Shown: positions 20,843 to 47,446 of the stretch, one piece after another
Layout: each line of letters opens with the position of its first letter
How positions within the stretch are numbered: the first letter of the stretch is position 1
Assembly (NCBI RefSeq): GCF_019312595.1
Contig: NZ_JAHWDQ010000001.1
Span: forward strand, 682,001-746,000
Direction of reading: 5' to 3'
DNA length: 64,000 nucleotides
DNA from: Zhongshania aquimaris
GTDB taxonomy: Bacteria; Pseudomonadota; Gammaproteobacteria; Pseudomonadales; Spongiibacteraceae
The notes under the pieces: generated by a model
What the model saw: only the letters and a program-made list of their open reading frames with translations
What the model was told of the DNA's origin: nothing
Database searches by the model: none
Made by a program: the position numbers and the translations under genes

Positions 20843-20856
20843 AAGCCCGCTCCCAT

Positions 20857-21156: not shown

Positions 21157-21331
21157 CCTTCGCTCCCAATTCTGATTTTTTATCTATGGTTTCCACGTCA
21201 ATATGACCGTTAGGAAGGCAGAAAGTGCTACCGATATTGATTTACACACATTATCGGCATATTTCATTGCCGTACACCCACTCCACCCGTAGTATTCCAC
21301 CCCAATGTAAAAATTCACTATCACTCAAGCT

Positions 21332-21616: not shown

Positions 21617-21728
21617 CAATGACGCCTCTTAGACATTGCCAAGCCCGCTTCTGTGACCAGCAAATCAATCATGGCAGCAACAGCAAATAACACCGATAAT
21701 ATGAATTCAATAATAATGAGGAAATACT

Positions 21729-22157: not shown

Positions 22158-22217
22158 ACTATCTTCACTGCGCGGACATTCTCGCTGTGTTACGACAATA
22201 TCCGCGCATACACCCGT

Positions 22218-22406
22218 CTACAATGCTTCTGTGATCATGCCATTGCCAATACGAACCACCCGATGCGGCTGAAATTGAGGCCCATTCAACTTCTCAATTT
22301 TACCGCCATTATGTAAGAACTCATCAATCTGTCGAGCAATTTCAGCACTCGCATGCTGTTGATGTAAGTTAGAGAAGGTACCGTGTTGCTTAATATAGCG
22401 ATCCAT
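22218..22406 (-). CDS. small hypothetical protein
   Basis: A 62-residue soluble protein (MDRYIKQHGTFSNLH...). The internal ATG at 22406 is chosen because AAGGG stands seven bases upstream; a start seven codons earlier has no such site. The middle reads SAEIARQIDEFLHNGGKIE, an amphipathic helix followed by a turn. No family recognised. Confidence 0.55.
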   Translation of the reverse strand: MDRYIKQHGTFSNLHQQHASAEIARQIDEFLHNGGKIEKLNGPQFQPHRVVRIGNGMITEAL

Positions 22407-22553
22407 ATCACAACCCTTTTTGCTCATCTACATGTATTGGAAACCAATAATCGATTGCCAAAGCCCTAGCGCTCTTCAGCAAGACGAATGCTATACCCAG
22501 CAGATGACAAAATTAGGATGATTTTATGACAAAACACTAACATAGAAATAAAA

Positions 22554-22575
22554 AAAGGCCGCTTTCGCGGCCTTT
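22554..22575 (-). terminator. rho-independent terminator after the acyl-CoA ligase
   Basis: The stem AAAGGCCGC/GCGGCCTTT with a four-base loop ends 19 bases after the ligase stop (minus strand) and is followed on that strand by seven T residues, a textbook terminator. Confidence 0.9.
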
Positions 22576-22593
22576 GTAAACAACGATAACGAA

Positions 22594-24204
22594 TTACACC
22601 GCTGGCATTTCGTCCGCCATTTCTCGCAGCTTATTCTTAGCCACTTTCTCTAAAGTTGCACGTGGGAACTCGTCCACAAAATACACCGCACGGGGTACTT
22701 TAAAGTCGGCAAGATTGGCTTTGCAATGATCGATAATCGCCTGACCAAAAGCCGCTTCGTCCTCCGGCGCTCCCCAACCTTTAATGACAAATGCAACCGG
22801 CACCATGTCTAACATCTCATGGGATTTCGCGACAATTGCCACTTCACCTACGCCGCCACCTGGCACTTGCATACATACTTCTTCAACCTGGCGGGCTGAA
22901 ACGTTTTCCCCCCCCACTTTGAGCGCGTCCTTATCGCGATCAGTGAAAAAGAAATTCCCTTCATCACCGACGCTGACCATGTCGCCAGTTTTGAACCAGC
23001 CGTTGGGTGTAAACGATTTGGCCATGGCCTCCTCGTTTTTGTAGTACTCAAGGAAGATATTCACGCCGCGTGTGCCCTGCACCCACAACTCGCCAATCTC
23101 GCCTTTTTTACACATGGCGCCGGTTTCAGGGTTCACCACCGCCAAATGGTAACCCGGCGTGGGTTTGCCGATAGAGCCCTGCGGCCAATCGCTCACAAAA
23201 TCAGAACGGGTAGCGTGGGTGACGGTTTCAGTCATACCCCAGCTTGCAAAGGGTTTGGCCTTGAGCCAGCCTTCAATTTCTTTCCAAATAATACCCATCG
23301 GCATCACTTTTAAGCTGTGCTTTTCAGGCACCGCTTGCATACCAATCGCCTTAAACACAAAGGGAATCATTGAGCAGTGACTGACCTGATGCTTCTCAAT
23401 AATTTCCCAGAATCGGCTAGCGGAAAACTTAGGCAGCAATACCGCCGTCGCGCCGACACCAAGAGAGCCCCAGAACGCCCAGCTTTGACAGTTGACGTGG
23501 AAGAAAGGTAAAAACCCGAGATAAACGCTGTCGGTATTCATGCCCATACTTTGCGAGCCCATATTGCCAGACCACAGAGCATTGGCATGGGTATGAACAA
23601 CGGCTTTAGGCAGCGACGTGGTGCCCGAGGTAAACATAATACCCGCTGGCAACATCGGTTCTGCCGGGCGCGCAGGCAACGATTCAGCGTCGCCGTATAA
23701 ACTGCTAAACGCATCGGCACCGTTTTTAGATTCTTCGGCAACTTCACCGGAGTTGTCATCCGTCACCACAATCCACTTTAAGCCGGTAGCGCTTTTACGC
23801 ACTTCCTCTAAAAACTTGGGCTGGGTAATGGCGCCAACCGCTTCGGTATGACGCGCGAAGTATTCAATTTCGCCGCCCACGCTGCGAGTATTGGTGGTCA
23901 CACCCACCGCGCCGATCTTGGCACACGCATACCAAGCTAATACCATTTCTGGGCAGTTTTCTGCGTGGATCATCACCTTGTCGTGTTTGCGCACACCTTT
24001 GGCGTATAAGCCCGCCGCGATCTTTCCGGTCTCTTCGTCAAAGGCCTGGTAGGTCCAGCTGCGATCTTCAGCAGAGCGCGGCTCCCAAATCATAAATGGG
24101 TGATCGGGTTTTACACGCGCCCAATGACGCAGGCGCTGGGGAATGTCCTGATCTGCAAAATCGAATTCGGCGGCAGCGACCGCGATATCCAAATCCATGC
24201 TCAT
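22594..24204 (-). CDS. acyl-CoA ligase (AMP-binding enzyme)
   Basis: A 536-residue member of the acyl-adenylate-forming superfamily that activates a carboxylic acid to its CoA thioester through an acyl-AMP. The P-loop is MFTSGTTSLPKAVVHTH, SWGMTETV is the A5-type motif, and WFKTGDMVSVGDEG with FFTDRDKDALKVGGENVSA covers the hinge. The C-terminal catalytic lysine lies in LEKVAKNKLRE. ATG 24204 is preferred, with GAGGAAAG upstream. It stands alone with its own terminator, so the acid substrate cannot be inferred from neighbours. Confidence 0.9.
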   Translation of the reverse strand: MSMDLDIAVAAAEFDFADQDIPQRLRHWARVKPDHPFMIWEPRSAEDRSWTYQAFDEETGKIAAGLYAKGVRKHDKVMIHAENCPEMVLAWYACAKIGAVGVTTNTRSVGGEIEYFARHTEAVGAITQPKFLEEVRKSATGLKWIVVTDDNSGEVAEESKNGADAFSSLYGDAESLPARPAEPMLPAGIMFTSGTTSLPKAVVHTHANALWSGNMGSQSMGMNTDSVYLGFLPFFHVNCQSWAFWGSLGVGATAVLLPKFSASRFWEIIEKHQVSHCSMIPFVFKAIGMQAVPEKHSLKVMPMGIIWKEIEGWLKAKPFASWGMTETVTHATRSDFVSDWPQGSIGKPTPGYHLAVVNPETGAMCKKGEIGELWVQGTRGVNIFLEYYKNEEAMAKSFTPNGWFKTGDMVSVGDEGNFFFTDRDKDALKVGGENVSARQVEEVCMQVPGGGVGEVAIVAKSHEMLDMVPVAFVIKGWGAPEDEAAFGQAIIDHCKANLADFKVPRAVYFVDEFPRATLEKVAKNKLREMADEMPAV

Positions 24205-32822: not shown

Positions 32823-33704
32823 ATGAACTTCAGCATTCGACAGCTAGAGATCTTTCTGTCTGTCGCCAAACACCAGAGTGTGTCCAAGGCGGCAGACCAG
32901 CTATGCCTGTCCCAGTCCGCCGCGAGCGCCTCATTGCAAAATTTGGAAAAGTCCTACGGCGTGAGCCTGTTTGATCGCCAGGGCAACAAAATCAAACTCA
33001 ATGCCATCGGCCACACCCTGCGCAAAGAGGCGGAGACCTTATTCGCCCACTGCCAACAATTCGACGACGCCTTAAAGCGCCATGCCGATATCGGCCACCT
33101 GCGGGTCGGCGCCAGCTTTACCATTGGCAACCATCTAGTGGTGCGCTACCTAGCGGACTATTTAGAAAACTACCCCGACGCCGACGTGCAGTTTGAAACC
33201 GCAAACACCCCTGACATCGTCGCTAAAGTCCTTAACTATGAAGTCGATGTTGGCATGATTGAACGCGAGGTTCAGCACCGCGAACTAGAGCTAATACCCT
33301 GGAAAGAAGACGAACTCGTGGTCTTTTGCAGCGCCTCGCACCCGCTCGCCCAAAAAGGCGTTCTCAAAGATAAGGATATTAAAGAAGCGAGATGGATCTT
33401 GCGGGAACCGGATTCCGGTGCGCGCTTCACCTTCGACCGCGCACTTGCAGGGCTGTTGCCCGACATCGAAATTTACCGTGAATTCAAACACAATGAGGCG
33501 ATTAAGAGCGCGGTGGAGTCAGGCTTGGGGATCGGCTGTTTATCTAAGGTGGTGTTGCAAAACGACTTTCGCAACGGTGACCTGGTGCCACTTACCTTGG
33601 CAAATCGGGATATGACACGAACCTTCTACTTCGCCCTACCCAAACAGCGGCACAAAAAAGCCGCCGTTGAATTTTGGGTAGAGCTTTGTAGAAAAATGCG
33701 TTAA
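32823..33704 (+). CDS. LysR-family regulator, CysL/YeiE-like
   Basis: A 293-residue LysR-type regulator. The N-terminal winged helix-turn-helix (IFLSVAKHQSVSKAADQLCL, then SQSAASASLQNLEK) is followed by a periplasmic-binding-protein-like effector domain (LRVGASFTIGNHLVVRYLAD near residue 95). The effector domain resembles the CysL/CbbR/YeiE branch. Divergence from cysC-sat fits control of sulfate activation, possibly in response to a sulfur compound; the effector is inferred. Confidence 0.9.
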   Translation: MNFSIRQLEIFLSVAKHQSVSKAADQLCLSQSAASASLQNLEKSYGVSLFDRQGNKIKLNAIGHTLRKEAETLFAHCQQFDDALKRHADIGHLRVGASFTIGNHLVVRYLADYLENYPDADVQFETANTPDIVAKVLNYEVDVGMIEREVQHRELELIPWKEDELVVFCSASHPLAQKGVLKDKDIKEARWILREPDSGARFTFDRALAGLLPDIEIYREFKHNEAIKSAVESGLGIGCLSKVVLQNDFRNGDLVPLTLANRDMTRTFYFALPKQRHKKAAVEFWVELCRKMR

Positions 33705-33851
33705 TGAAACTTCCAACTTGCCTAAACTCCGCTTTAAGTGCTTACGAAACGATAACACTACGGACTCACTCAACTGAGCCGATAAGTTCAAATTGAGCCC
33801 CATATTGAAAATGACGGCAAAACCGATGAGTAAAGGCGTCATTTATATTGT

Positions 33852-33879
33852 TTGACCTACATTTGCACTTTACTATAGT
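33852..33879 (+). promoter_or_regulatory. sigma-70 promoter of the defence operon
   Basis: TTGACC (33852-33857), a 16-base spacer, then TATAGT (33874-33879), close to consensus, lie just before the HTH controller gene. The promoter sits within an inverted repeat that could serve as the controller's operator. Confidence 0.65.
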
Positions 33880-33905
33880 TGAATCTACACAAGCACGGTG
33901 CAAAT
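33861..33905. promoter_or_regulatory. inverted repeat flanking the defence promoter
   Basis: ATTTGCAC at 33861-33868 and GTGCAAAT at 33898-33905 are exact reverse complements, 29 bases apart. The first half lies inside the -35/-10 spacer and the second touches the ATG of the HTH gene. The layout suits an autorepressor that blocks polymerase and translation start. Confidence 0.5.
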
Positions 33906-34154
33906 ATGATCAGATTTCGCCTGAAAGAGCTAATAGCGGAAAAGGAATTTCAAGAAAGTCGACGTATTACTTTAGAGGAAGTAGCCAAATCGACGGGAAT
34001 TCACCGAACTACCCTTTCAAAGGTTTCTAATCAAAAAGGCTATAACACTACAACAGAAGTGCTCGACAAATTGTGCGAATTCTTTGGCGTAGAACTTGGG
34101 GGCCTCGCAGAGCACATCAAGGAAGACAGCGAGAGCGGAGCTGCTCATGATTGA
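33906..34154 (+). CDS. XRE/Cro-type HTH controller protein
   Basis: An 82-residue single-domain helix-turn-helix protein: ITLEEVAKSTGIHRTTLSKV is the motif, followed by TTTEVLDKLCEFFGVELGGL, typical of Cro/C1-type controllers. ATG 33906 fits the domain boundary. Its stop overlaps the helicase start by eight bases, so it is the first gene of the defence operon and probably adjusts its expression, as C-proteins do in restriction-modification systems. Confidence 0.85.
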   Translation: MIRFRLKELIAEKEFQESRRITLEEVAKSTGIHRTTLSKVSNQKGYNTTTEVLDKLCEFFGVELGGLAEHIKEDSESGAAHD

Positions 34155-37023
34155 TAAAACCTCAAATAGCGGCATTCCATGTAAAGAGCAATACACCAAG
34201 CATCAAGCCCAGTATTTCGCATGGCAACTCACCCGCCGCCTCGATAGTGAAAACGAGGATAAGCTAACGGGCGCCATTATGGATGCCCAAATCGACCTAA
34301 ACCCCCATCAGGTTGATGCAGCGCTATTTGCCTTCAGAAACCCACTATCTAATGGCGTAATATTGGCCGATGAAGTTGGCTTAGGTAAAACCATTGAAGC
34401 AGGACTTGTTATCGCCCAAAAATGGGCGGAAAGACGCCGCCGTATCCTTATTATTGTGCCAGCCAACCTCCGCAAGCAGTGGCATCAAGAGCTTCAAGAA
34501 AAATTTGGTGTTGAGGCTACTATTCTTGATGGCGACAGTTACAAAAAAGCAAAAAAAGACGGTCGAAAAAATCCTTTCGACATGCAAGAAGGCGTTGTCA
34601 TTTGCTCATATCAATTCGCCAAAGCTAAAGCAGACGATATTCAAATGATACCGCAATGGGATCTAGCGGTAATTGACGAAGCGCACCGCCTAAGAAACGT
34701 TTACAAAAAAGGCAACAAAATAGCTAAAGCCATTGCTGAAGCAATCGGCAATACCTATAAAGTGATGTTGACGGCGACACCACTACAAAATTCCTTACTT
34801 GAATTGTATGGAATGGTGAGCATCATTGATGAAAAAATATTTGGCGATCTCGACAGCTTCCGCATTAAATACGGGCGAATTAATGACGCAACCTCGTTTA
34901 GTGAATTGAGGCAACGTATCAAGCCCGTTTGCAAGCGTACATTACGAAAAGATGTGGAAGCTTACGTCAAGTACACTAAGCGTATTGCTATGGTAGAGGA
35001 ATTTACGCCATCAGCGAACGAACAGTTACTTTACAAAAGGGTATCTAATTACTTACGCCGCCCTAATCTAAACGCCCTGCCCGATGGTCAACGTCAGTTG
35101 ATCTCGATGGTGATGTGGAAGTTGTTGGCCTCATCGTCATTCGCAATCGCTGGCGCTTTAGACACCATTAGAAAAAGACTGCTTGAAGGACTTACCGACC
35201 AGTCATTAACAAAAGCATTTGAAGCCGAATATGAGGCATTTGTTGAAACTAGAGAGGAATGGGATGACGACGACCAATACTCTACTCCTCTCGCTGATAG
35301 GCAATCTGTCCTGGACGAAATAGAAGAACTCGGTGCGTACATTAAACTCGCGGAAAGTATTAGTGATAATGCCAAGGGCGAGAAACTCTTAGACGCATTA
35401 AAAATTGCATTCCAAAAACTTAGCGAAATTGGTGCAAAAGAAAAAGCGATCATTTTTACAGAATCGAGAAAAACCCAAGATTACTTGCTAAGAACTCTAA
35501 AAAAGAGCCAGTACAAAGACGGCATTGTTCTATTTAACGGAACAAATAATGATGCCCAAGCAAAGGAAATATATAAAGCCTGGATAACTAAACATGCAGA
35601 AAGTGACAAGATAACAGGCTCAAAAACCTCCGATACACGCGCTGCGTTAGTCGAGTATTTTTGTGATCAGGGAAAAATCATGATTGCAACGGAGGCGGCG
35701 GCAGAAGGCGTAAACCTCCAATTTTGCTCGCTCGTCATTAACTATGACTTACCGTGGAATCCCCAGCGAATCGAACAGCGAATAGGTCGATGCCATCGGT
35801 ACGGTCAGAAACATGATGTTGTCGTATTAAATTTCATTGACTCGACTAATGAAGCTGACAAACGTGTTCACGAGTTATTAAGGCTGAAATTCAACATTTT
35901 TGATGGCGTATTTGGTGCATCGGACGAAGTGCTTGGCGCTATTGAAAATGGTGTTGACTTCGAACGAAGAATTAAAAACATCTATGACAACTATCGCGAG
36001 GCTCATGATATTCAACGAGAGTTTGATAAGCTTCAAGAGGATCTAGCCCACGAAATTAACCTACAAATGGTTAACACTCGGGAAAAGCTGTTTGAACATT
36101 TTGATGAAGATGTACTTCAAAATATTAAAGTGGATACCAATAGATCGCTTGATAAGTACGAACGGATGCTACTTGCATTAACTAGAAGCGAATTAGATGG
36201 TCACATAGGCGATATTGAAGGTGGCTTTGTAGTTAACACACTTCCTCCACAAGCGCCAAAGGATATTCCAACGGGTGAATATGAATTGCCGCGCAGGAAG
36301 GGAGATTGTCACCTATATCGTTTAAAGCACCCCTTAGCCCAATGGGCGATTGAAAAGGCTAAATCGCATCAGTTAGAGCAATCTCACTTGGTATTTTGCG
36401 CGAACGCCAAAGATACCAAAGTCTCTGTGGTTCAAGAGCTTCGAGGGCAGTCGGGCCAGCTTAAAGCCACAAAACTTACAGTAGAGTCAATGAAACGAGC
36501 GGAAGACTATATCGTGCTCACAGGCTTCAATGATGCCGCCAAAAGTGAAGCGATGAGCCAAGAAGTTCTTGAAAAACTTATGGCGTTTCCAATTTCTAAC
36601 ATCCATAGCGCATCATTTGTAGAGTCCCCGCATTTACAAGATCAACTGTCGCGTAGAAAAACAGAGATACTGGGGGAAATTACCAATCGAAACCTGCAGT
36701 ATTTCGAAGCAGAAGTTGAAAAGCTAGAAGCTTGGTCAGATGACCTTAAGGTGGTTTTGGAGCAGGATATTAAAGAAACCGACCGTGAGATCCGTGAGGT
36801 TCGCAGAACAGCGAAAGTCGCTCCAGACCTTAACGAAAAGCTCCATTGGCAAAAACGTTTAAAAGATTTGGAGCGACTACGAAACAAAAAGCGCAGAGAC
36901 TTATTTGATAAGCAAGATGAGGTTGATGATAGGCGTGAAGAATTAATCACGGTGTTAGAAGAAAAAATGAATCAAAAAATCGAAGAACATCATTTGTTTA
37001 CCATTACCTGGGAGGTTATTTAA
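34147..37023 (+). CDS. SNF2-type superfamily 2 helicase of the defence island
   Basis: A 958-residue helicase/translocase. Walker A is DEVGLGKT (residues 75-82), motif II is DEAH (177-180), motif III is LTATP, and motif VI is QRIEQRIGRCHRYGQ (from residue 540), the Swi2/Snf2 pattern. Residues about 800-945 are highly charged and probably coiled coil (EVEKLEAWSDDLKVVLEQDI, KRLKDLERLRNKKRRDLFDK). ATG 34147 has GGAG six bases upstream and overlaps the HTH gene; the TAA overlaps the AIPR ATG. Likely role: ATP-driven movement on DNA, perhaps coupling target recognition to the neighbouring nucleases. Related genes accompany type III methylase/helicase pairs in other genomes. Confidence 0.88.
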   Translation: MIDKTSNSGIPCKEQYTKHQAQYFAWQLTRRLDSENEDKLTGAIMDAQIDLNPHQVDAALFAFRNPLSNGVILADEVGLGKTIEAGLVIAQKWAERRRRILIIVPANLRKQWHQELQEKFGVEATILDGDSYKKAKKDGRKNPFDMQEGVVICSYQFAKAKADDIQMIPQWDLAVIDEAHRLRNVYKKGNKIAKAIAEAIGNTYKVMLTATPLQNSLLELYGMVSIIDEKIFGDLDSFRIKYGRINDATSFSELRQRIKPVCKRTLRKDVEAYVKYTKRIAMVEEFTPSANEQLLYKRVSNYLRRPNLNALPDGQRQLISMVMWKLLASSSFAIAGALDTIRKRLLEGLTDQSLTKAFEAEYEAFVETREEWDDDDQYSTPLADRQSVLDEIEELGAYIKLAESISDNAKGEKLLDALKIAFQKLSEIGAKEKAIIFTESRKTQDYLLRTLKKSQYKDGIVLFNGTNNDAQAKEIYKAWITKHAESDKITGSKTSDTRAALVEYFCDQGKIMIATEAAAEGVNLQFCSLVINYDLPWNPQRIEQRIGRCHRYGQKHDVVVLNFIDSTNEADKRVHELLRLKFNIFDGVFGASDEVLGAIENGVDFERRIKNIYDNYREAHDIQREFDKLQEDLAHEINLQMVNTREKLFEHFDEDVLQNIKVDTNRSLDKYERMLLALTRSELDGHIGDIEGGFVVNTLPPQAPKDIPTGEYELPRRKGDCHLYRLKHPLAQWAIEKAKSHQLEQSHLVFCANAKDTKVSVVQELRGQSGQLKATKLTVESMKRAEDYIVLTGFNDAAKSEAMSQEVLEKLMAFPISNIHSASFVESPHLQDQLSRRKTEILGEITNRNLQYFEAEVEKLEAWSDDLKVVLEQDIKETDREIREVRRTAKVAPDLNEKLHWQKRLKDLERLRNKKRRDLFDKQDEVDDRREELITVLEEKMNQKIEEHHLFTITWEVI

Positions 37024-38726
37024 TGGCTAAAAAAGGAGTTCAGCCATTAGAGTTAATGCAGTTGTGCGAATTGCTTCATTCGAAGTTTGATAGGCTCATA
37101 GAGGGTACAGGCTCTGGAGATACTGCGAAGGAACGTAATTTTTTCTCTAGGGCATTGGCTGCTTATTATTTGGTTTCTGAGGTTGGTGCTTCCATTGAGG
37201 ATGCGGTGACAGCCTCTATTGATGGCGGAGATGATCATGGAGTTGATTCAGTTTATGTGGATGCCACCGAAACTATTTGGTTAATTCAATCAAAATATAT
37301 TGATCGAGGTGTCGGCGAGCCGGCGCTTGGTGATGTGAATAAATTCGAAAATGGTGTTCGAGACTTATTGCGTAAGCAATACGGCCGTTTCAATCAACAC
37401 TTACAAGCAAAAATACCACTCATCGATCGCGCATTAGATTCTGGCGTGTGCCAAGTAAAAGCCGTTTTGGTGTATACCGGTAGCGCATTGTCGGATGATA
37501 GACGGCGAATGATGGGGGATCTTGTAAGCGCCTTCACCTCTCCAGCCAGAAGAAATTTTCTTCGTTTTGTCAATGCTGGATTAGAGTCTTTCCACCAGTA
37601 CCATTTAAGTGAAACGCTAGCGGCTCCGATCTCGCTGGATATTGAGCTAGAGCAGTTTGGCTTTTTAACCGAGCCTTACCCCTGTTACTACGGTGGGCTA
37701 GATGCAGACCAAATTAAAGCCTTTAAAACGCTGCACGGTGACCACCTATTCAACGCAAACATACGTCAATTTAAGGGCAATACAGCGGTTAACATCGATA
37801 TAGTTAGTACCTTAACGAACACGCCTGAAAACTTCTTTTACTTCAATAATGGCGTAACGTTGCTTTGCGATGAAATACAGCAAATATCAGCTCATGATGA
37901 AACCAATCGACTAGGCAAATTTCGCTTACAAGGCGTGTCAGTCATTAATGGCGCTCAAACGGTTAGTTGCATTGCCGATGCCCTTGGTGAGGATCAAAAG
38001 CAATCAACAGCTAAGGTTATGGCAACAATCATTAGCTTAGAAAATGCTCCCGACCGCTTTGGTGAATCTGTGACACAGTTTAGAAATAATCAAAATGCAG
38101 TTTCTGATGTGGACTTTGCAGCTTTGGATGAAAACCAGCAACAATGGGCAAAAACGCTAGCCAATAGCGGAATAAATTATCGCTACAAAGGTGGTTTGCA
38201 GGATGACGAAACATTTAATTTAGAGTTCGCAGCGCGGGCATTGGCTTGCTCATACTCTACTGATGAGTCATTACACCTTGTAGCTTTGGCAAAAAAAGAC
38301 AGCAAGAAGTTGTTTTCACGCACAAAAACCGCTGAAAACGAATCAACCTACAAGTCCATTTTCCCTGACACATTAGAGGCTCGAGTCTTGTGGCGAGTCG
38401 TTCAAATTTGCCAGGAAGTAATCTCGGTGATTACGCGTGAAGTAAAGAGTGCGCAAGGCACAGATAAGGAAATTATTTCTCATTCTCGTTGGATGGTCTG
38501 TTATTTGGTGATGTGTCGGAAATTCGACTTAAAACTTGAGCAAGAAGTTGCTTTGACCTTGGTTCAAAAAAACCTGGTTGGAATTGAGGCGCAAAACATT
38601 GTTTATCGAGTTATCACGGAATTTAACAAGAAAGCTTTTGATAAGTCTCCGAAATCAGTATTTGAAAACCAAAACGATTTACAAACATTAAAAGGCCCTG
38701 TAATGGCCGCATTGGCCAACACATAG
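37023..38726 (+). CDS. AIPR family protein with N-terminal nuclease-like domain
   Basis: A 567-residue protein with the abortive-infection phage-resistance (AIPR) core: ANIRQFKGNTAVNIDIVSTL from residue 245, then ENFFYFNNGVTLLCDE and GVSVINGAQTVSCIADAL. Before it, residues about 40-95 have the order of a PD-(D/E)XK nuclease: a helix, GVDSVYVD with Asp75, and IWLIQSKY with Gln89 and Lys91. AIPR proteins are linked to phage defence, but their biochemistry is poorly known. The ATG overlaps the helicase stop (TAATG) and 13 bp separate it from the methylase. In related loci a DUF4391 protein often occupies this slot. Confidence 0.85.
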   Translation: MAKKGVQPLELMQLCELLHSKFDRLIEGTGSGDTAKERNFFSRALAAYYLVSEVGASIEDAVTASIDGGDDHGVDSVYVDATETIWLIQSKYIDRGVGEPALGDVNKFENGVRDLLRKQYGRFNQHLQAKIPLIDRALDSGVCQVKAVLVYTGSALSDDRRRMMGDLVSAFTSPARRNFLRFVNAGLESFHQYHLSETLAAPISLDIELEQFGFLTEPYPCYYGGLDADQIKAFKTLHGDHLFNANIRQFKGNTAVNIDIVSTLTNTPENFFYFNNGVTLLCDEIQQISAHDETNRLGKFRLQGVSVINGAQTVSCIADALGEDQKQSTAKVMATIISLENAPDRFGESVTQFRNNQNAVSDVDFAALDENQQQWAKTLANSGINYRYKGGLQDDETFNLEFAARALACSYSTDESLHLVALAKKDSKKLFSRTKTAENESTYKSIFPDTLEARVLWRVVQICQEVISVITREVKSAQGTDKEIISHSRWMVCYLVMCRKFDLKLEQEVALTLVQKNLVGIEAQNIVYRVITEFNKKAFDKSPKSVFENQNDLQTLKGPVMAALANT

Positions 38727-38739
38727 GGGTATTTAAAAC

Positions 38740-40395
38740 ATGAGCAGTAAAAACAAAACTAAATTAGAACTTATTTGGATCGGTAAAGATAAACGACCGA
38801 AACTAGAGCCTAGGATTTTGTTGGAAGACCCGTCGAAGTCCTACCATGCAAGCCACAAAGTTTCTGAAAACGATATCTTTGATAATAAGCTGATTTTTGG
38901 GGATAACTTGCTGGCGCTTAAGGCTTTGGAGCAAGACTACGCTGGAAAAGTTAAATGTGTATTTATTGATCCTCCTTATAATACTGGTAGTGCATTTACG
39001 CATTATGAAGATGGGATGGAGCATTCAATTTGGCTATCTCTAATGAAAGACCGGTTAGAGATTCTCCATAGCCTGATGTCAAAAGATGGTTCGATTTGGA
39101 TTTCAATTGATGATAACGAGGCGCATTACCTTAAAGTGCTTTGCGATGAGGTTTTTGGAAGAAATAATTTTGTTGCATCTGTAATATGGCGCAAAAACTA
39201 TGCACCCAAGTCAAGCGCAAAACATTTTTCTGTTGACCATGATTATATTCTTGTTTACGCAAAAGATGAAGACACTTGGCGTCCTAATCCGATGCCTCGA
39301 TCAGATAAGCAAAACAAGGCCTATAAAAATCCAGACAATGACCCTCGAGGTCCTTGGAGAGCCAATAATCTGGCAGCTAGAAATTACTACAGCAAAGGAA
39401 TGTACCCAATAACATGTCCAAGTGGACGGGTTGTCGATGGTCCTCCACATGGCTCTTATTGGCGTTATTCTGAAGAGAAGTTTAGAGAGCTGGATGCTGA
39501 TAATCGTATCTGGTGGGGCAAAGATGGGAACAATGTACCCGCACCCAAAATCTTTTTGAGCGAGGTCAAGCAGGGGGTTGTGCCTCAAACCTATTGGGAC
39601 TATCAAGAAGTTGGGCATACGCAAGAATCAAAGAAAGAGATAGTAGATCTTTTTGGCGCAGCAGTTTTTGACACGCCGAAACCAGAGCGGTTAATGGAGC
39701 GAATTTTAACATTAGCTACCAATCCTGGTGATTTGGTGTTGGATTCATTTGCAGGATCGGGCACGACAGGCGCTGTTGCGCACAAAATGCATCGAAGATG
39801 GATTATGGTTGAGTTGGGGGACCATTGTGCGACGCACATTGTTCCACGCCTAAAGAGCGTGATAGATGGGGAACACAAAGGAGGGATTACGGATTCATGC
39901 AAATGGATTGGTGGCGGTGGCTTTCGCTATTACCGCTTAGCACCATCATTATTGGAGCAAGATCGCTGGGGCCGCTGGGTGATTAGCAAAGATTATGATG
40001 CCGCCATGTTGGCCGAAGCCATATGCAAATTAGAAGGCTTTACCTACGCACCTTCCGACACTGAATGGTGGAATCATGGCTATTCCACCGAACAGGATAG
40101 AATTTATGCCACTACGCAGACGCTTTCTGTTGAACAGCTACAAGCATTAAGTGATGAAGTCGGCGAAGATTATAGTGTGTTGGTTTGTTGCAGCGCATTT
40201 CGCTGCAAGGCCGATCGTTTTCCTAATCTTACGTTAAAGAAAATCCCCAAAATGGTGTTGTCGCGCTGTGAGTACGGCCACGATGATTACAGCTTAAATG
40301 TAGAAAACCTACCCATGCAGGAAAGGCCTAAACCCGACCCATCGCAAGGTGGCTTGTTTCAAGATGAAATGTTTGACGATAACGGACAAGGCTAA
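38740..40395 (+). CDS. site-specific DNA methyltransferase, type III Mod-like (beta class)
   Basis: A 551-residue amino-methyltransferase. Motif IV DPPYNTG (residues 77-83) precedes motif I FAGSGTTG (337-344), the beta-class order of type III Mod proteins; DPPY-type enzymes modify adenine N6 or cytosine N4. The region between the motifs (about 84-330) likely contains the target-recognition part, and residues 380-551 are an extra C-terminal region (GFRYYRLAPSLLEQDRWGRW). It protects host DNA and, with the following helicase-nuclease, should set the target sequence of the system. Confidence 0.92.
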   Translation: MSSKNKTKLELIWIGKDKRPKLEPRILLEDPSKSYHASHKVSENDIFDNKLIFGDNLLALKALEQDYAGKVKCVFIDPPYNTGSAFTHYEDGMEHSIWLSLMKDRLEILHSLMSKDGSIWISIDDNEAHYLKVLCDEVFGRNNFVASVIWRKNYAPKSSAKHFSVDHDYILVYAKDEDTWRPNPMPRSDKQNKAYKNPDNDPRGPWRANNLAARNYYSKGMYPITCPSGRVVDGPPHGSYWRYSEEKFRELDADNRIWWGKDGNNVPAPKIFLSEVKQGVVPQTYWDYQEVGHTQESKKEIVDLFGAAVFDTPKPERLMERILTLATNPGDLVLDSFAGSGTTGAVAHKMHRRWIMVELGDHCATHIVPRLKSVIDGEHKGGITDSCKWIGGGGFRYYRLAPSLLEQDRWGRWVISKDYDAAMLAEAICKLEGFTYAPSDTEWWNHGYSTEQDRIYATTQTLSVEQLQALSDEVGEDYSVLVCCSAFRCKADRFPNLTLKKIPKMVLSRCEYGHDDYSLNVENLPMQERPKPDPSQGGLFQDEMFDDNGQG

Positions 40396-40409
40396 GGGCG
40401 GGATAAAAA

Positions 40410-43154
40410 ATGACAACAAATACAATCAACCCAACAAATACTCGTATTCTTAAAGCCATCACGGGTCGCTTGAGTTTGCGAAAGCCTCAAGAAGATTCAC
40501 TTATTGCGCTTGCTCAGGCAATTGCGTCCGCACCGGATACGCTTGAGCAATCTCGTGATATTGAGTCTTTACTTAAAACTTTGAGTTCGGCGTTTCCAAC
40601 CCTTTCGGATTTCGAGCGAGAGTTCCCATCTTTGTGTTTTGCCCTGGCAACGGGTGTAGGTAAAACGCGATTGATGGGAGCATTTATTAGCTTTTTACAT
40701 CAAGCCCATGGCATTAATAATTTCTTTGTATTGGCGCCTAACCTCACCATTTATAACAAATTAATTGCCGATTTTGATGATACGGCATCGCCTAAGTATG
40801 TTTTTAAAGGCATCGCAGAGTTCGCAGTCAATCGCCCGATAGTCATAACCGGTGACAATTACGAACAAAAAGGCGCACAGCTTAAACAAGACTTATTTGG
40901 TCAAGCACAGGAAGTGCGCATCAATATTTTTAATATCTCCAAAATAGTCTCTGAGGTACGTGGTGGTAAGGCTCCACGGATGAAGCGCTTATCAGAATAC
41001 TTAGGTGATAGTTATTTCAATTATCTGTCTGAGTTGGATGACTTGGTGTTATTAATGGACGAGTCGCACCGTTACCGAGCCAGTGCCGGTATGCGTGCCA
41101 TTAATGAACTAAACCCACGATTAGGTTTGGAATTAACGGCAACGCCTTTTACCGAGTCAAATCGCGGCCCTGTGCCCTTTAAAAATGTGATAGTGGATTA
41201 CCCGCTGGCATGTGCTATGGAGGATGGATTCGTAAAAGAGCCAGCCGTAGTCACTCAGCGCAATTTTGACCCCAAGCAATACAGCCCTGAAGGACTAGAA
41301 ACGGTAAAACTCGAAGATGGTGTGCGCCTACATGAAGCGACTAAATTAGAGTTGTTTACCTACGCGAAACAAAACAGCGTAAAAGTGGTAAAGCCTTTTA
41401 TGCTGGTCATTGCGCGAAACACAACACATGCGGCGCAATTGCTTGAACGCATAGAATCTGACAGTTTTTTTAATGGCGCCTATAAGGGTAAAGCCATTCA
41501 GGTAGATAGTTCTAAAAGCGGTGCGGCTGAAGAAGAGATGATACTGCGCTTATTGGCCGTTGAAAGTGTCGATGAACCTACCGAAATTGTCATCCACGTG
41601 AATATGTTGAAAGAAGGTTGGGATGTTACCAACCTTTACACCATTGTCCCTTTACGTGCGGCAAACGCGCGAACACTTATTGAACAGTCGATCGGCCGTG
41701 GCTTGCGCTTACCCTACGGTAAGCGTACGGGTGTGGACGCCGTCGATCGTCTAAACATTGTTGCGCATGATCGCTTCCAAGAAATTGTTGATGAGGCTAA
41801 TAACCCCAACAACCCCCTGCGTTTACGTCAGGTCATTCTGGATAAAGACGATACCGAGCAACCTAAAGATAGCGTAGCAGTAACGTCTCGCTTGGAAGGT
41901 TTGTTTACTGGTAGGTCTGTGCAAAGCGCCACAGGGTTCGATTATTCAGCTCCAGGTAAGTCACCGGATGAGGTTACTAAGCCTGTATTTAGCGGCGTGA
42001 CCGAACGGGAGGTGGCGTTAACCACGTTACGTGTTCTGCAAAGCTATCAAAACAAGCCGAATGAGGCACCTACAAGCAAAGCATTATTGAATAAAGATGT
42101 TCAGGCAGAGGTATATAAAGCTGTTTCTGAGCAGCTTAGTGGACAGCAACAATCTTTGCTAGAAGACGAGGAAAAAGTAAGCCTACAAGAAGTTATCGCA
42201 AAAGCGACAGAGCTAGTGGTTGAGCAAACGATTGATATACCGCGCATTGTTGTTATGCCTTCAGGTGAAATCACCTATGGCTATACACCGTTTTTGTTGG
42301 AAATGGGACAGTTAAATCTTCAACCGACGAACCGAGAGTTGATCTCGCAGAGTCTACAGACCAATGAGCAAGTCAGTATCTCTTCGCTTCCTGAACGGAA
42401 GTATACCCGCCTAGAAGACTATATTGTTGAACATTTGGTGGACTATGACGACATTTCCTACGATGAACATGCGGAGCTTATTTACGACTTAGCGACACAA
42501 TCAGTCAACTTCTTTCGCGATATTCGTGAATACACCGAAGATGAGTTGCACAATATCTTCTTCGGGTTTGGCAAGCGAATCGCCGAGAATATACATGCGC
42601 AAATGGCTGAACAGTATTGGGAAAAAGCCAGTAGTTATGAAACATCCATTACAGCTGGTTTTGTGCCCTTGTGTGATGCTGCCTACACCACTGGCGAGAA
42701 AGAAATTCATAATGTACGTAGCACCTTGCAAGATAAAGGAAAAATTAAAAAAATGCTTTTTGGTGGCTTCCGTAAATGTCTCTACGATGTTCAGAAGTTT
42801 GATTCTGACACAGAGCGTACATTCGCTCTGATTCTGGAACGTGAAGCTATTAAGTGGTTCAAGCCTGTTAGCGGGCAGTTCAAAATTTACTATAAAGACG
42901 GCATTCATCACCGAGAGTACCTTCCTGATTTTGTCGCTGAACTCGATGACAGAGTCATAATGGTAGAAACCAAAGCTCGCCGAGATATGACTGACACTTT
43001 GGTAGAAAATAAAGCAGAGGCAGCCAAAAAGTGGTGTGCAAATGCAACAGACTACTTGACCCAAAATGGCGGCAAGCCATGGGAGTACATTTTGATTGCC
43101 CATGATGACGTACATGAAAATAGAGATTTAAAAGGGTTTTCGTCAATAATATAA
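40410..43154 (+). CDS. type III restriction-like helicase-nuclease (Res)
   Basis: A 914-residue superfamily 2 protein. Walker A is ATGVGKTR (80-87), motif II is DESH (217-220), and QSIGRGLRLPYG is motif VI. Near the C-terminus PDF (839-841) and VETK (852-855), with HREYL just upstream, form a PD-(D/E)XK nuclease site (Asp840, Glu853, Lys855). This matches type III Res architecture: ATP-dependent translocation and DNA cleavage with Mod. It begins 14 bp after the methylase. Length is near that of EcoP15I Res (about 970). Confidence 0.9.
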   Translation: MTTNTINPTNTRILKAITGRLSLRKPQEDSLIALAQAIASAPDTLEQSRDIESLLKTLSSAFPTLSDFEREFPSLCFALATGVGKTRLMGAFISFLHQAHGINNFFVLAPNLTIYNKLIADFDDTASPKYVFKGIAEFAVNRPIVITGDNYEQKGAQLKQDLFGQAQEVRINIFNISKIVSEVRGGKAPRMKRLSEYLGDSYFNYLSELDDLVLLMDESHRYRASAGMRAINELNPRLGLELTATPFTESNRGPVPFKNVIVDYPLACAMEDGFVKEPAVVTQRNFDPKQYSPEGLETVKLEDGVRLHEATKLELFTYAKQNSVKVVKPFMLVIARNTTHAAQLLERIESDSFFNGAYKGKAIQVDSSKSGAAEEEMILRLLAVESVDEPTEIVIHVNMLKEGWDVTNLYTIVPLRAANARTLIEQSIGRGLRLPYGKRTGVDAVDRLNIVAHDRFQEIVDEANNPNNPLRLRQVILDKDDTEQPKDSVAVTSRLEGLFTGRSVQSATGFDYSAPGKSPDEVTKPVFSGVTEREVALTTLRVLQSYQNKPNEAPTSKALLNKDVQAEVYKAVSEQLSGQQQSLLEDEEKVSLQEVIAKATELVVEQTIDIPRIVVMPSGEITYGYTPFLLEMGQLNLQPTNRELISQSLQTNEQVSISSLPERKYTRLEDYIVEHLVDYDDISYDEHAELIYDLATQSVNFFRDIREYTEDELHNIFFGFGKRIAENIHAQMAEQYWEKASSYETSITAGFVPLCDAAYTTGEKEIHNVRSTLQDKGKIKKMLFGGFRKCLYDVQKFDSDTERTFALILEREAIKWFKPVSGQFKIYYKDGIHHREYLPDFVAELDDRVIMVETKARRDMTDTLVENKAEAAKKWCANATDYLTQNGGKPWEYILIAHDDVHENRDLKGFSSII

Positions 43155-43178
43155 AAATATATCGCGCTGGAGCTTGCT

Positions 43179-43364
43179 ATGAGTAATTCTGAAGTATTGT
43201 TAAAACAGATAATGGACACTGTTAATGCCGAGGGGTTGCTGGCGGAAGCAGAGATTAAGAGCATTGAAAAATTGATTCTTTCTTCGAAGGTGAAAGAAGA
43301 GGACTGGGCGCTTGCCTTGGAGAATACACATTTGCAGGAGCACTATAATGTCGAAGATCTCTAA
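43179..43364 (+). CDS. small acidic protein of the defence operon
   Basis: A 61-residue protein (MSNSEVLLKQIMDTVNAEGL...) with GGAG before its ATG. Predicted mostly helical, with a hydrophobic face in LLKQIMDTV and IEKLILSS. Its stop overlaps the ATPase gene by 17 bases, so the pair is translationally coupled. It could be an inhibitor or partner of the ATPase/nuclease that follows. No family recognised. Confidence 0.7.
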   Translation: MSNSEVLLKQIMDTVNAEGLLAEAEIKSIEKLILSSKVKEEDWALALENTHLQEHYNVEDL

Positions 43365-45636
43365 ACTTGATAAATTAACAATTGCTGGTCTGCGAGGAGT
43401 GTCAACTCCGCTAGAAATCCAATTCGAAAAGCCGCTAACACTAATTTATGGTCAAAATGGAACAGGTAAAACCTCAATCTGCGATGCATTGGATTTTCTA
43501 GCGAATGGCGACTGCGGCTCTCTAAACGACAATAGCATTGGTGCCTCAAAACATAAGTATTGGCCATTCGTTGGCAAGAAAGCTTCTGACGTGTCAGTAA
43601 CTTTAACCCACGAAAATGGAGCAAGCTGGCGAGCAAGCATTTCCGGCACAAAACCTGTTGTTACTACATCCTCGTTGTATTCCATCCCCTTTGTTAAAAT
43701 TTGGCGGCGAAAGCAAATGATGGATCTTATTCTTGCCAAGCCCGCAGAACGATTCAATGTCATATCTGAATTTATCGACGTAGGTGAAATAGACCGATCA
43801 GAGAAGACGGTAAGAGACTTACAGCGAAATATCGAAAGCCAATTGAGAATTGCATCCGAACGTATAGCAGAGAACTATTCAACATTGGAGATGCAATACC
43901 GCTTAAGCGGGGTGACAAACTCAGACCCTGTTACATGGGCTAAGATCGAATCAGACAAAGACATATCTGAATTTGATGCAGAAATCAGTTCCTTTTCTGA
44001 GCTATTACGCAAAATTGAATTATTAACCTCCGCACTAGAGACACTCCGTCGCATGGGTCGGGAAGCCGATGAAGTTGAAAATGATTTTAATTCTAAAGAA
44101 AAATCATATACTGAAATTAAATCAAAAGTTATTGATGGGGCCGCTGATTCACTGGGAATTCTTTCTGAAGCCCGTAAATACTTCGAATCAAAAAAGATGG
44201 AGGTTAGCTCATGTCCTCTATGTGAAAGCAAGGAAAATATTGCTGGTCTTCCCTCTCGAATCGCGACAATAATTGAAAGCTTCTCAGAGCTGAATACTGC
44301 AAAGGAAGAACTCGATCATGCTACGCAAAGAAAAGATCGTAACCGTGAATCCATAGCCACCGCAACATCAGCTATTTCAGATAAGATTAAAGCTATCGAA
44401 ATATTTATGCGCGAATTCTCCGAAGAAATCGATATATTAAGTGACTTAAAAACAATCTTGTCTAAAAAAGACACTCTAGCTTATGACGATATCGAGGCAG
44501 TTCGTAGTGATCTTGAAATTTATAAAAATAGCTTACTTGAAAACAAAGGAAAACGCGCAATTATCGATGCCGCTTACTCACAGTACACTGACAACATGCG
44601 GGAACAAAAGTCAAACAAGATTTTGAAACCGATAATAGACAGGTTATTAGCAATTCACGAATCAAAGCGGAAAAATTTTATAGATGCAATACTTTCCTCG
44701 ATCGCCGGAGAAGTTGGTCGTTTGTATGAGGTCGTTCATCCCGGAGAGGGTTTGGACAAAATTGCATTACAATTAGACCCAAAAAGACGGGCATCATTAG
44801 ATATTCAATCAGAGTTTAAATGTAAAAATGCTCCTCCAGGAGCATATTTCAGCAACTCTCATCTAGATTCATTAGGACTATGCATATTGCTGTCTCTTGC
44901 AAAAAGAGATGCTCCAGACAATACAATTCTAATAATGGACGACGTATTGGGAAGTATAGATGAGCCGCATGCAGATCGCATTGTTAACCTTATTTACGCA
45001 GAGTCTGAAAATTTTATGCATACGTTAGTAACTACGCATTATCAACGCTGGCATGCAAAGATAAGAAATGGGCAGCTAAAGTTTTCAGACTGCCAGCTTA
45101 TCGAGCTTAAGGAATGGAACCCAAGTCTTGGCGTAATTCTACAAGATTCAGCGCGATCTATGGTAGAGATCCTGCGTGACAACATCAATACTCGACCAAA
45201 CGAGCCTGAACCGATCGCACAACAAGCTGGATACCTATTAGAACAGGTATGTGACTGGCTGGTTTCACATTATGAATTAAGTATTCCTAGACGAAAAAAT
45301 ACAGCTTACGATTACCTTTGCGCTTTAAAAGATAAATACAGCAAGCAGCTAAAGGTACAGCATTTACAGCCAGATGGTTCATATTATGAAACTGAATTAC
45401 AGCAGTTAATTTCGGATCTTCGCATTTTATTTCAAATACGGAATATCGTTGGAGCCCATTTCAACGAACTGGCCAGTCATTTAACTGCGAGTGACAGCTT
45501 AGAGTTTGGCAAGAAAGTTCTGGAGCTTTCTGACTTACTGATCTGTAAACATGAAGGCTTCCCGAACAAAAGCAAAGCTGACTATTTATCTACGAGCACA
45601 GAAACAAGAAGGCTCTACCCACTTAGAATGCAGTAA
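43348..45636 (+). CDS. Rad50/RloC-like ATPase with zinc hook and HEPN-like C-terminus
   Basis: A 762-residue SMC-like ABC ATPase. Walker A is GQNGTGKT (35-42); a coiled-coil arm follows, with a Rad50-style zinc hook CPLC at 289-292. The signature region SNSHLDSLGLCILLSLAK is near residue 503, and Walker B/D-loop LIMDDVLGSIDE contains Asp531-Asp532. Beyond the ATPase, residues about 570-762 form an extra helical domain with RNIVGAH (Arg698-x5-His704), matching the R-x4-6-H motif of HEPN RNases, as in the anticodon nucleases PrrC and RloC. RloC has the same hook-plus-nuclease layout. ATG 43348 follows AGGAG at seven bases. RNase activity is inferred from one short motif. Confidence 0.8.
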   Translation: MSKISKLDKLTIAGLRGVSTPLEIQFEKPLTLIYGQNGTGKTSICDALDFLANGDCGSLNDNSIGASKHKYWPFVGKKASDVSVTLTHENGASWRASISGTKPVVTTSSLYSIPFVKIWRRKQMMDLILAKPAERFNVISEFIDVGEIDRSEKTVRDLQRNIESQLRIASERIAENYSTLEMQYRLSGVTNSDPVTWAKIESDKDISEFDAEISSFSELLRKIELLTSALETLRRMGREADEVENDFNSKEKSYTEIKSKVIDGAADSLGILSEARKYFESKKMEVSSCPLCESKENIAGLPSRIATIIESFSELNTAKEELDHATQRKDRNRESIATATSAISDKIKAIEIFMREFSEEIDILSDLKTILSKKDTLAYDDIEAVRSDLEIYKNSLLENKGKRAIIDAAYSQYTDNMREQKSNKILKPIIDRLLAIHESKRKNFIDAILSSIAGEVGRLYEVVHPGEGLDKIALQLDPKRRASLDIQSEFKCKNAPPGAYFSNSHLDSLGLCILLSLAKRDAPDNTILIMDDVLGSIDEPHADRIVNLIYAESENFMHTLVTTHYQRWHAKIRNGQLKFSDCQLIELKEWNPSLGVILQDSARSMVEILRDNINTRPNEPEPIAQQAGYLLEQVCDWLVSHYELSIPRRKNTAYDYLCALKDKYSKQLKVQHLQPDGSYYETELQQLISDLRILFQIRNIVGAHFNELASHLTASDSLEFGKKVLELSDLLICKHEGFPNKSKADYLSTSTETRRLYPLRMQ

Positions 45637-45788
45637 ATTCTTATATATCACTCTGAATGACGGAGTTGAGTTAAAAATTACCGAACGTCGGAGAAGTTCC
45701 ACGTCGGTTTATATCTGAGTTAAATTTATTGATATAAAAATAGTTTTCGATCAGCGGATAACAGACGTATTTTATATCGACAGAACCC

Positions 45789-45822
45789 TTCCTCATCAAC
45801 GTTAGCTAACATTGATGAGGAA
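45789..45822. repeat. 34-bp near-perfect palindrome at the end of the defence island
   Basis: TTCCTCATCAA and TTGATGAGGAA flank a second palindrome, GTTAGCTAAC; only one base pair in the whole 34 bases mismatches. It lies 152 bp after the ATPase stop and 70 bp from the convergent ligase gene. It could act as a terminator, though T tracts are short, or as a protein-binding or recombination site. Confidence 0.75.
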
Positions 45823-45867
45823 ATTACCGTCATATTATTAAAAGTATTAAGGCAATGAACTACCTGC

Positions 45868-45890
45868 CGTTGACGCATATTGAGTCAACG
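45868..45890. terminator. weak hairpin after the acyl-CoA ligase
   Basis: CGTTGAC and GTCAACG form a seven-base stem with a nine-base loop immediately after the minus-strand ligase stop codon. There is no T run, so termination is uncertain. Confidence 0.4.
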
Positions 45891-45892
45891 AG

Positions 45893-47446
45893 CTAAGCGA
45901 TTGGCGGATACTTCTCTGCCATCATCGTCCGAATATCTTTCTTCAAGACTTTGCCGGTTGGGTTACGTGGCAAGGCAGCGATGTATTCCACTTTGCGAGG
46001 AATTTTATAGCCCGCCAATTTACCGCGACAAAACTCGGTAAGCTCCTCGGCGCTGAGTTCTGGCTGACCGCCGGAAACGATCACCGCGAGAGGCACCTCC
46101 CCCCACTTTTGATCCGGCACGCCAATCACAGCGACATCCTGTATTTGGCTGTGCGACATTAGATGGTTTTCAATTTCCGCTGGGTAGATATTCTCGCCAC
46201 CAGAAATAATCATGTCTTTTACGCGGTCTTGAATATAGATATAGCCCTCTTCATCCATACGCCCTGCATCGCCGGTGTGCAGCCAACCATCAACCACGGT
46301 TTTAGCCGTTGCCTCCGGGTTCTTCCAATAGCCCTGCATGACTTGCGGGCCTTTGGCAACGATTTCGCCAATTTCACCCAGTGGCAATTCCTGGCCGTCA
46401 TTGTCTACAATTCGCATCTCGGTACCAAACACCGCCCGCCCGCACGAGCGCAATAACTCGGGGCGACCTGTCAGCGCCTTCTTGTGATCATCTGCGGTGA
46501 GGAAGGTCAGCGCCATGGTCGATTCTGTCTGTCCATAGCCTTGCACAAAATCGCAGCCAAAGGCATCCATACACTGCTGCAACAAGGACTCTGAAATCGG
46601 TGAGGCGCCATAATTGATGGTGTGTAACTCAGAGAAGTCGTAGTCTTTTATATTCGGCACCATCGCAAGGGAGAACTGCAGCATCACCGGTATAACCGCC
46701 ACCGTACTAACGTGCTCATTGGCCAGGGTTTCGATCATCCCAACCGGATCATAGTCACTGTGGATAATCATTGAACCACCGTAAATGACCCCCATCAAGG
46801 AACCCACTAAGCCGACGGCGTGGAAGGTAGGCGCAATCACCAAACCAATTTCACCAACCCGACCACCTTTACCGGTTGCCATCGGCGCCTGGTAAGTATT
46901 AGCAAGTACATTGTGATGACTGATCAAAACCCCCTTGGGTAAGCCCGTGGTGCCACTGGTGTACATTTGAAAAAGGATGTCGTCGCCATTGATCTCGACC
47001 TCATTCAAGGTCGCGCTGCTATCCAACCAACTGTCCAGCTTTGCCGCACTGCTGTCGCTGTCAAAACATACACCAATCCTGGAGCGCAGATAGTCACCGC
47101 GCAGTCCGTCAAACTCTTGATCAAAGAACAGCATTTGCACGTCGGCATTGCTGGCGATAAATTCAACTTCTGCAGCTGCCAGGCGATAATTCAAACCCAC
47201 TACTACCGCACCGATGCGGGCACAAGCGAGAAAGACACAGAGATTATCAACCGAATTTTTCGCTAGAATCGCAACGCGGTCGCCTTTAACAATACCTTTG
47301 CTTTGAATATTGGCGGCAATCAAATTAACGTAGTCCCAGGCTTCGGCGTAGTTCAGGGACTTTTTACTATCGCGCGCCATCATCATGTCGCCACGCATAC
47401 GCGCATGAAACCGGGTATGGTCATTCAAATTATTAAATAGCTTCAT
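45893..47446 (-). CDS. acyl-CoA ligase (AMP-binding enzyme) of the beta-oxidation operon
   Basis: A 517-residue acyl-adenylate-forming enzyme. QMYTSGTTGLPKGVLISHHN is the AMP-binding P-loop, VQGYGQTEST the A5 motif, WLHTGDAGRMDEEGYIYI the ATP-binding aspartate block, and NPTGKVLKKDI contains the C-terminal catalytic lysine. It resembles FadD3/DitJ-like ligases for cyclic or branched acids as well as medium-chain ligases. It is the last gene of a seven-gene operon and presumably activates the acid that the upstream genes degrade. Confidence 0.9.
   Translation of the reverse strand: MKLFNNLNDHTRFHARMRGDMMMARDSKKSLNYAEAWDYVNLIAANIQSKGIVKGDRVAILAKNSVDNLCVFLACARIGAVVVGLNYRLAAAEVEFIASNADVQMLFFDQEFDGLRGDYLRSRIGVCFDSDSSAAKLDSWLDSSATLNEVEINGDDILFQMYTSGTTGLPKGVLISHHNVLANTYQAPMATGKGGRVGEIGLVIAPTFHAVGLVGSLMGVIYGGSMIIHSDYDPVGMIETLANEHVSTVAVIPVMLQFSLAMVPNIKDYDFSELHTINYGASPISESLLQQCMDAFGCDFVQGYGQTESTMALTFLTADDHKKALTGRPELLRSCGRAVFGTEMRIVDNDGQELPLGEIGEIVAKGPQVMQGYWKNPEATAKTVVDGWLHTGDAGRMDEEGYIYIQDRVKDMIISGGENIYPAEIENHLMSHSQIQDVAVIGVPDQKWGEVPLAVIVSGGQPELSAEELTEFCRGKLAGYKIPRKVEYIAALPRNPTGKVLKKDIRTMMAEKYPPIA

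Follow-up and report, generated by a model that had tools for sequence, protein, structure and literature searches.

What holds together the seven genes at 33906–45636 of a 64,000-nt stretch of the Zhongshania aquimaris genome (contig NZ_JAHWDQ010000001.1, positions 682,001 to 746,000; hereafter the window), and do they form one fixed defence system or a common core with additions? A first-pass annotation made from the letters alone read them as a type III-like restriction-modification (R-M) operon with added layers of defence. Its account of tightly packed, co-directional genes of named families is borne out by the open reading frame (ORF) coordinates and by profile searches: all seven lie on the forward strand, every junction is an overlap or a gap of ≤24 nt, and six of the seven proteins are named by profile, as a Cro/C1 helix-turn-helix (HTH) protein, SNF2 with Helicase_C, AIPR (PF10592), an N6_N4 methylase, ResIII, and AAA_23. 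Comparison with other loci shows the operon to be an SNF2-Mod-Res core with interchangeable cargo, not a set of seven fixed genes. The operon's families do co-occur in other genomes, but among the loci searched there is no second one with the same seven genes in the same order; in one genome (G334, locus L044) the order is SNF2, AIPR, small gene, ATPase, Mod, Res, which is the content of the window minus the HTH gene, rearranged.

The three core genes code for an SNF2/RapA-type helicase (34147–37023, 958 aa), a type III Mod (38740–40395, 551 aa), and a type III Res (40410–43154, 914 aa). The helicase is DrmD-like, with DrmD as its best profile (662 bits in PADLOC; 669.6 bits for DISARM_DrmD_b in NCBIfam), also matches BrxH and HmaA, and matches RapA structures at E 6e-38. 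Mod scores 772 bits with PADLOC MTase_III, matches EcoP15I Mod (E 2.7e-34) and the Mod of 6k0w (E 1.7e-52), and has DPPY (residue 77) before FAGSG (337), which fits a beta-class methylase. Res, an SF2 helicase with a C-terminal PD-(D/E)xK motif, scores 667 bits with PADLOC REase_III, matches EcoP15I Res (E 2.7e-7), and carries DESH at 217 and PDF at 839 followed by ExK at 853. The type III profiles, the EcoP15I matches, and the motifs in place support the proposed type III-like core. As in EcoP15I, a beta-class Mod lies next to a Res that joins an SF2 helicase to a C-terminal nuclease motif; the window differs in that SNF2 precedes Mod and diverges in step with Res, and in that effector genes sit in slots around Mod and Res.

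We searched overlapping samples of 369 genomes from the class and 209 from the phylum, scoring few candidates per genome, so that the counts are lower bounds. In the class sample, SNF2 is present in 22 genomes and Res in 23, with both in 15 (1.4 expected) and on the same contig in 11. Across the 15 loci carrying all three core genes, the SNF2 and Res distances correlate with r 0.90; with L002 and L003 excluded (n 13), r is 0.88, a value reached in 0/9999 permutations. Mod was present at 14/16 loci opened through SNF2 alone, comprising all seven on plasmids (opened from 25 rows listed), 5/6 in class genomes (five of the six having been picked for showing no window-type Res match), and 2/3 in congeners.

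Four SNF2 operons (L074, L075, L077, and L079), among them one on a conjugative Escherichia coli plasmid, have a much longer Mod (~1046–1139 aa) and also a much longer helicase (~1079–1120 aa); perhaps these are a second branch of the core.

The interval between SNF2 and Mod is a site of exchange. It holds AIPR in the window and in L002–L005, L044, L069, and L131 (the last also with RhuM); the small gene and ATPase in L040, L044, and L128; IetA-IetS in L037 (by PADLOC) and L045 (by similarity and Pfam); a RloC/PrrC-type ATPase (AAA_13/PDC-S06) in L041; an HEC-01A-type ATPase in L046; AlbA in L050 and L115; GmrSD in L076 and L113; SIR2 with HerA in L070; KilA-N in L077; and HipA in L078. The slot is empty in L051, L071, L074, L134, and L135. 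The interval between Mod and Res likewise contains a zeta toxin in L037, L048, and L049, and RhuM in L076 and L077, and in L003 the genes after Res, where the window has its ATPase, match PDC-M30A/B. Cargo also adjoins Mod at loci with no SNF2 in view: the small gene and ATPase in L036, IetAS (by similarity) in L047 and L052, KwaB in L047, and an HEC-01A-type ATPase in L049. In L081, Fic and Abi_2 follow SNF2, and the contig ends before any Mod. The suggestion that AIPR replaces DUF4391 was not upheld: no DUF4391 was present among 30 neighbour proteins scanned from related loci, and the many unrelated families that occupy the same slot argue against AIPR as its simple substitute.

Mod itself has a variable segment. 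Between the window and L002/L003, Mod residues 101–300 are only 16–52% identical by block, although the blocks beside them are 60–84% identical and residues 1–50 and 401–550 are 94–98% identical; Res is 84–100% identical by block over the same comparison. As judged from these alignments, Mod varies as it would if target-recognition regions had been exchanged, which argues that restriction-modification is under selection here.

The last two genes of the operon occur together. The small gene (43179–43364) codes for a 61-aa protein with a conserved W motif (EDW in the window), and overlaps by 17 nt the gene for a 762-aa Rad50/RecF-like zinc-hook ATPase (43348–45636; AAA_23, 65.7 bits). The small protein has no match in Pfam (E 0.05) or PADLOC (E 0.001), and in NCBIfam only a 16-bit match at chance level. 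All 11 of 11 close homologues have a small ORF that either lies ahead of the ATPase start or overlaps it (a set that leaves out L072, and in which the small ORFs of L128 and L130 were located by means of the W motif), and W43 is invariant in the nine aligned small proteins. ATPase copies were found in 4/369 genomes of the class sample and 3/209 of the phylum sample, the window being in both, and thus in six distinct genomes. All six adjoin SNF2 and/or Mod: SNF2 is a neighbour in five (G000, G263, G334, G419, and G446), Mod in five (G000, G057, G263, G334, and G446), and window-type Res in four (G000, G057, G263, and G334). By their distribution, the 61-aa gene and the ATPase form one separable unit. 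Eight loci on viral contigs match the ATPase within its first 54 residues only.

In calling the ATPase RloC-like and pointing to an R-x5-H motif in it, the first-pass annotation was right about the motif and the architecture. Walker A, the C289-P-x-C292 zinc hook, and R698..H704 (the R-x5-H at 698–704) are invariant in 9/9 aligned sequences, and the head matches an SMC head structure at E 3.5e-7; like RloC and PrrC, as excerpts of PMC3710099 and PMC3506569 describe them, it combines an ABC head with a conserved R...H in the C-terminal domain and coupling to R-M, with a zinc hook as in RloC. Family membership did not follow: the AAA_13 profile gives 18.4 bits against a cut-off of 36, the ATPase has a small partner gene, and a true AAA_13 relative occupies the same slot in L041.

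Is the C-terminal domain then an RNase, as an effector role would have it? The alternative, that the domain is no RNase and the protein instead senses DNA ends or acts as a regulator of the Lamassu or Rad50 type, R-x5-H then being structural, is plausible but less likely than not. The best named profile of the ATPase is LmuB (69 bits, ahead of mad3 at 47 bits), which favours it, and a HEPN fold is unconfirmed: HEPN family profiles do not match the C-terminus, the domain, searched as a profile against the Protein Data Bank (PDB), returned nothing at E 10, Foldseek gave no match at E <0.001, and in VIA-align a HEPN toxin-antitoxin chain (6m6w) ranked 29th at Z 6.9, no better than unrelated helical bundles. 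Of the five single-sequence models, the best has a pLDDT of 71 and the other four 40–49. On the other side, R698, N699, G702, H704, and F705 are invariant across nine diverse sequences, the one usable model is all-helical, albeit with low certainty, and ABC-HEPN fusions in R-M operons are already described in PMC3710099. The likeness to Lamassu LmuB and MADS mad3 is confined to the SMC-like ATPase; among the PADLOC matches listed for the seven proteins (the best 25 families in the case of SNF2, Mod, and the ATPase) there is no LmuA, no LmuC, and no other mad protein.

The cargo in the window's SNF2-Mod slot is AIPR (37023–38726, 567 aa; PF10592, 135.3 bits against a cut-off of 25). Its N-terminus had been called nuclease-like, and invariant residues and a modelled FokI-like fold support this. 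D71, D75, Q89, and K91 are invariant in nine aligned sequences, and in an AlphaFold model built from nine sequences (pLDDT 80, pTM 0.45) the N-terminal domain has FokI as its best VIA-align neighbour (Z 9.5 over 148 residues, 3.5 Å), followed by AF1548 (8.5), MspJI (8.1), and HamA (8.0), a method in which models that have no clear match often reach best Z values of 7–8. There was no sequence match to the PDB and no Foldseek match to the model at E <0.001; restriction nucleases ranked first in VIA-align only. The middle part has a weak ParB-N match (residues 216–360, Z 6.1). A restriction-nuclease-like fold is likely for the modelled N-terminus. Excerpts of a 2012 paper (PMC3506569) link AbiU1/AIPR with type III R-M and give it an N-terminal HEPN domain, in contrast to the restriction-nuclease fold predicted for the window's branch. 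Separately, in a Hymenobacter locus (L005, 9974–13552) the SNF2-Mod interval contains a tandem of two distinct AIPR genes.

How might these parts act together? We think it somewhat more probable than not that this is an acquired type III-like R-M operon whose SNF2-Mod-Res core is coupled to exchangeable back-up effectors. Marking of the cell's own DNA and restriction of invaders are very likely its work. By homology to EcoP15I, an asymmetric site would receive its methyl group from Mod on one strand, and incoming DNA without this mark would be cut by Mod-Res through the Res nuclease; the SNF2 translocase would probably clear protein from the DNA or license Res. AIPR, with its modelled fold, could be a second DNA-cutting effector, and the ATPase may sense DNA ends or failed restriction, unleash its RNase-like C-terminal domain, and stop the cell. 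Both AIPR and the ATPase unit may thus shut the cell down should cutting fail; the suicidal back-up that the first-pass annotation assigned to the ATPase is still an inference. We would guess that the small protein is an adaptor or a restraint of the ATPase.

A different reading is that independent defence systems are merely co-located, with type III R-M, AIPR, and the small-protein/ATPase pair each acting alone. In its favour, five Bacteroidota plasmids carry the small gene and ATPase alone, nothing within ~12 kb of the pair matching SNF2, Mod, or Res, and plasmids of only ~5.6 kb carry an AIPR gene (27–28% identical). L002 and L003 also have the core without the ATPase and show a broken small-gene remnant after Res, which suggests, at the level of sequence, that the pair was lost or replaced there; since these loci lack it, the ATPase is dispensable to the core. 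Further results count against the coupled operon. L129, which is probably the remainder of G419's split ATPase, has no Mod or Res after it, and the L072 ATPase matches distantly (E 2e-4), with no W motif in the ORF upstream of it. The core also has gaps: Res occurs without an SNF2 match in 8/23 Res genomes, including G057, G328, and G136 (L036, L047, and L052), 7/22 SNF2 genomes have no match to window-type Res, SNF2 stands without Mod in L114, and no Mod lies in the stretches at L053 (decayed) or at L081 and L130 (both at contig ends). Mod co-varies less than the other two, with r 0.51 to SNF2 (170/9999 permutations) and 0.57 to Res (95/9999) at n 13. For AIPR, the 369 genomes gave six matches at E <1e-10, of which four, all weak, fall outside known SNF2 loci, and of the seven loci from the AIPR scan, L006–L008 hold distant AIPR only. 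We nonetheless regard independence as unlikely: every ATPase copy in the six genomes adjoins core genes, both strong AIPR homologues in the 369 genomes (the window's included) are within SNF2-type loci, the genes overlap or nearly abut, and cargo is placed between core genes and not at the edge only.

The reading of the operon as a DISARM-like or BREX-related system, with SNF2 as the effector motor and Res secondary, is very improbable: SNF2 does score best with DrmD profiles (662–670 bits) and also matches BrxH and HmaA, but its 669.6 bits fall below the DISARM_DrmD_b cut-off of 950, Mod and Res are best matched by type III models, and the seven proteins match no DrmA, DrmB, or DrmC in NCBIfam and no PglZ, DUF499, or DUF1156 in Pfam (E 0.05 in both). 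The DISARM gene set includes a DrmD-type helicase and an adenine-type methylase, and in this the window resembles class 1 DISARM, from which it differs by having a type III Res; a PADLOC DrmA match (124 bits, among the best 25 listed) is a cross-match of SNF2. In HMA, which we take to be the Type-1 BREX-related type, the ATPase belongs to DUF499 and the methylase to DUF1156, and the seven proteins match neither; HmaA, at 178 bits, is below DrmD. The likeness there is to the combination of SNF2 helicase, methylase, and an ATPase possibly carrying an RNase that is described for Type-1 BREX-related systems in excerpts of PMC12839542. The MZA system was also rejected as a candidate, with MzaE at 51.4 bits against a cut-off of 1050.

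The acquired nature of the SNF2-Mod-Res operon and its cargo is seen at its borders. The operon had been noted as AT-richer than its flanks, suggesting transfer, and both points stand: its GC content is 0.427 against 0.506 in the left flank and 0.501 in the right, and the site is empty in most same-genus genomes. In 6/8 of these (L100–L105), lysR and an acyl-CoA synthetase gene are adjacent, with ≤44 nt between the matches, and we therefore take ~12.2 kb, roughly 33699–45893, as an insertion; because the bare site is found in these six, the whole block was probably gained in a single event. In the remaining two (L106 and L107), the right flank was not seen next to lysR. In a set of 29 relatives that includes the window's genome, five carry SNF2 and one, the window itself, carries the ATPase. 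There are no tRNA genes in the window, and no integrase was seen by eye among the ORFs at 30–50 kb. Two observations concern mobility elsewhere. In L003 (3275–6606 and 16551–19690), the operon, followed by its PDC-M30A/B-type genes, sits near apparent conjugative-element genes, recognised by eye. On the Bacteroidota plasmids (L064–L068), the small gene and ATPase have integrase or recombinase genes nearby, together with genes annotated as Mov34/MPN or ThiF and, in most cases, WYL-domain or patatin-like proteins; this setting suggests a further defence island.

Searches of open-licence PubMed Central papers, with passages of PMC12839542, PMC10853773, PMC12458937, PMC11090510, PMC9519451, and PMC12707154 consulted, turned up neither the SNF2-Mod-Res core nor the small-protein/ATPase pair as a named system; absence from print is not established. 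The concept of coupling restriction to toxins is not new, since coupling of toxins to R-M and displacement of one toxin by another were proposed in 2012–2013, as seen in excerpts of PMC3506569 and PMC3710099. We tentatively raise the possibility that SNF2-Mod-Res is an uncatalogued three-gene R-M class that has an SNF2 motor of its own and a permanent slot for effectors, in which unrelated weapons (nucleases, proteases, kinases, and RNase-like ATPases) are swapped, and that the small protein and ATPase make up a new effector unit of two genes, able to sense when the core has failed and also mobile alone on plasmids. If so, a common restriction core would be a chassis for swapping last-resort effectors, and the old proposal that restriction is coupled to cell shutdown would become directly testable with one core and many natural cargos, using near-identical operons that either carry or lack the ATPase, and Mod variants whose recognition regions have been exchanged. 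It would also frame the unnamed small-protein/ATPase pair and give AIPR a likely nuclease fold, as modelled.

The remaining gene of the operon, at its left end, codes for an 82-aa HTH regulator of the Cro/C1 type (33906–34154; Pfam HTH_26, 44.7 bits against a cut-off of 22). The operon's ends are exact, with the HTH ATG at 33906 and the ATPase stop codon ending at 45636. The start codons chosen are 34147 for SNF2, 37023 for AIPR, 38740 for Mod, 40410 for Res, 43179 for the small gene, and 43348 for the ATPase, and for HTH, SNF2, and the ATPase the profile searches took starts farther upstream, which give longer proteins. HTH and SNF2 overlap by 8 nt and SNF2 and AIPR by 1 nt; gaps of 13, 14, and 24 nt separate AIPR from Mod, Mod from Res, and Res from the small gene, respectively. 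The window's HTH gene is also present in L002 and L003, and elsewhere there is another HTH type or none was found. Upstream of SNF2, a Cro/C1 regulator is also present in L074, by sequence; L070–L073, L114, and L115 have an excisionase-like HTH, judged by eye, and an ORF scan found no regulator in several further loci.

Promoter-like sites number 12 against 23.7 expected by shuffling and were not used as evidence, although there is a TTGACC-16-TATAGT at 33852–33879. An 8-nt inverted repeat (33861–33868 and 33898–33905) resembled an operator, but L002 and L003 have not conserved it. The window has a second dip in GC content (0.449–0.474) at 20001–23000, within which 20483–22594 is without an ORF of ≥180 aa. 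Just 3′ of the operon and within the inserted segment, positions 45789–45822 form a spacerless inverted repeat of 17 nt with 94% complementarity.

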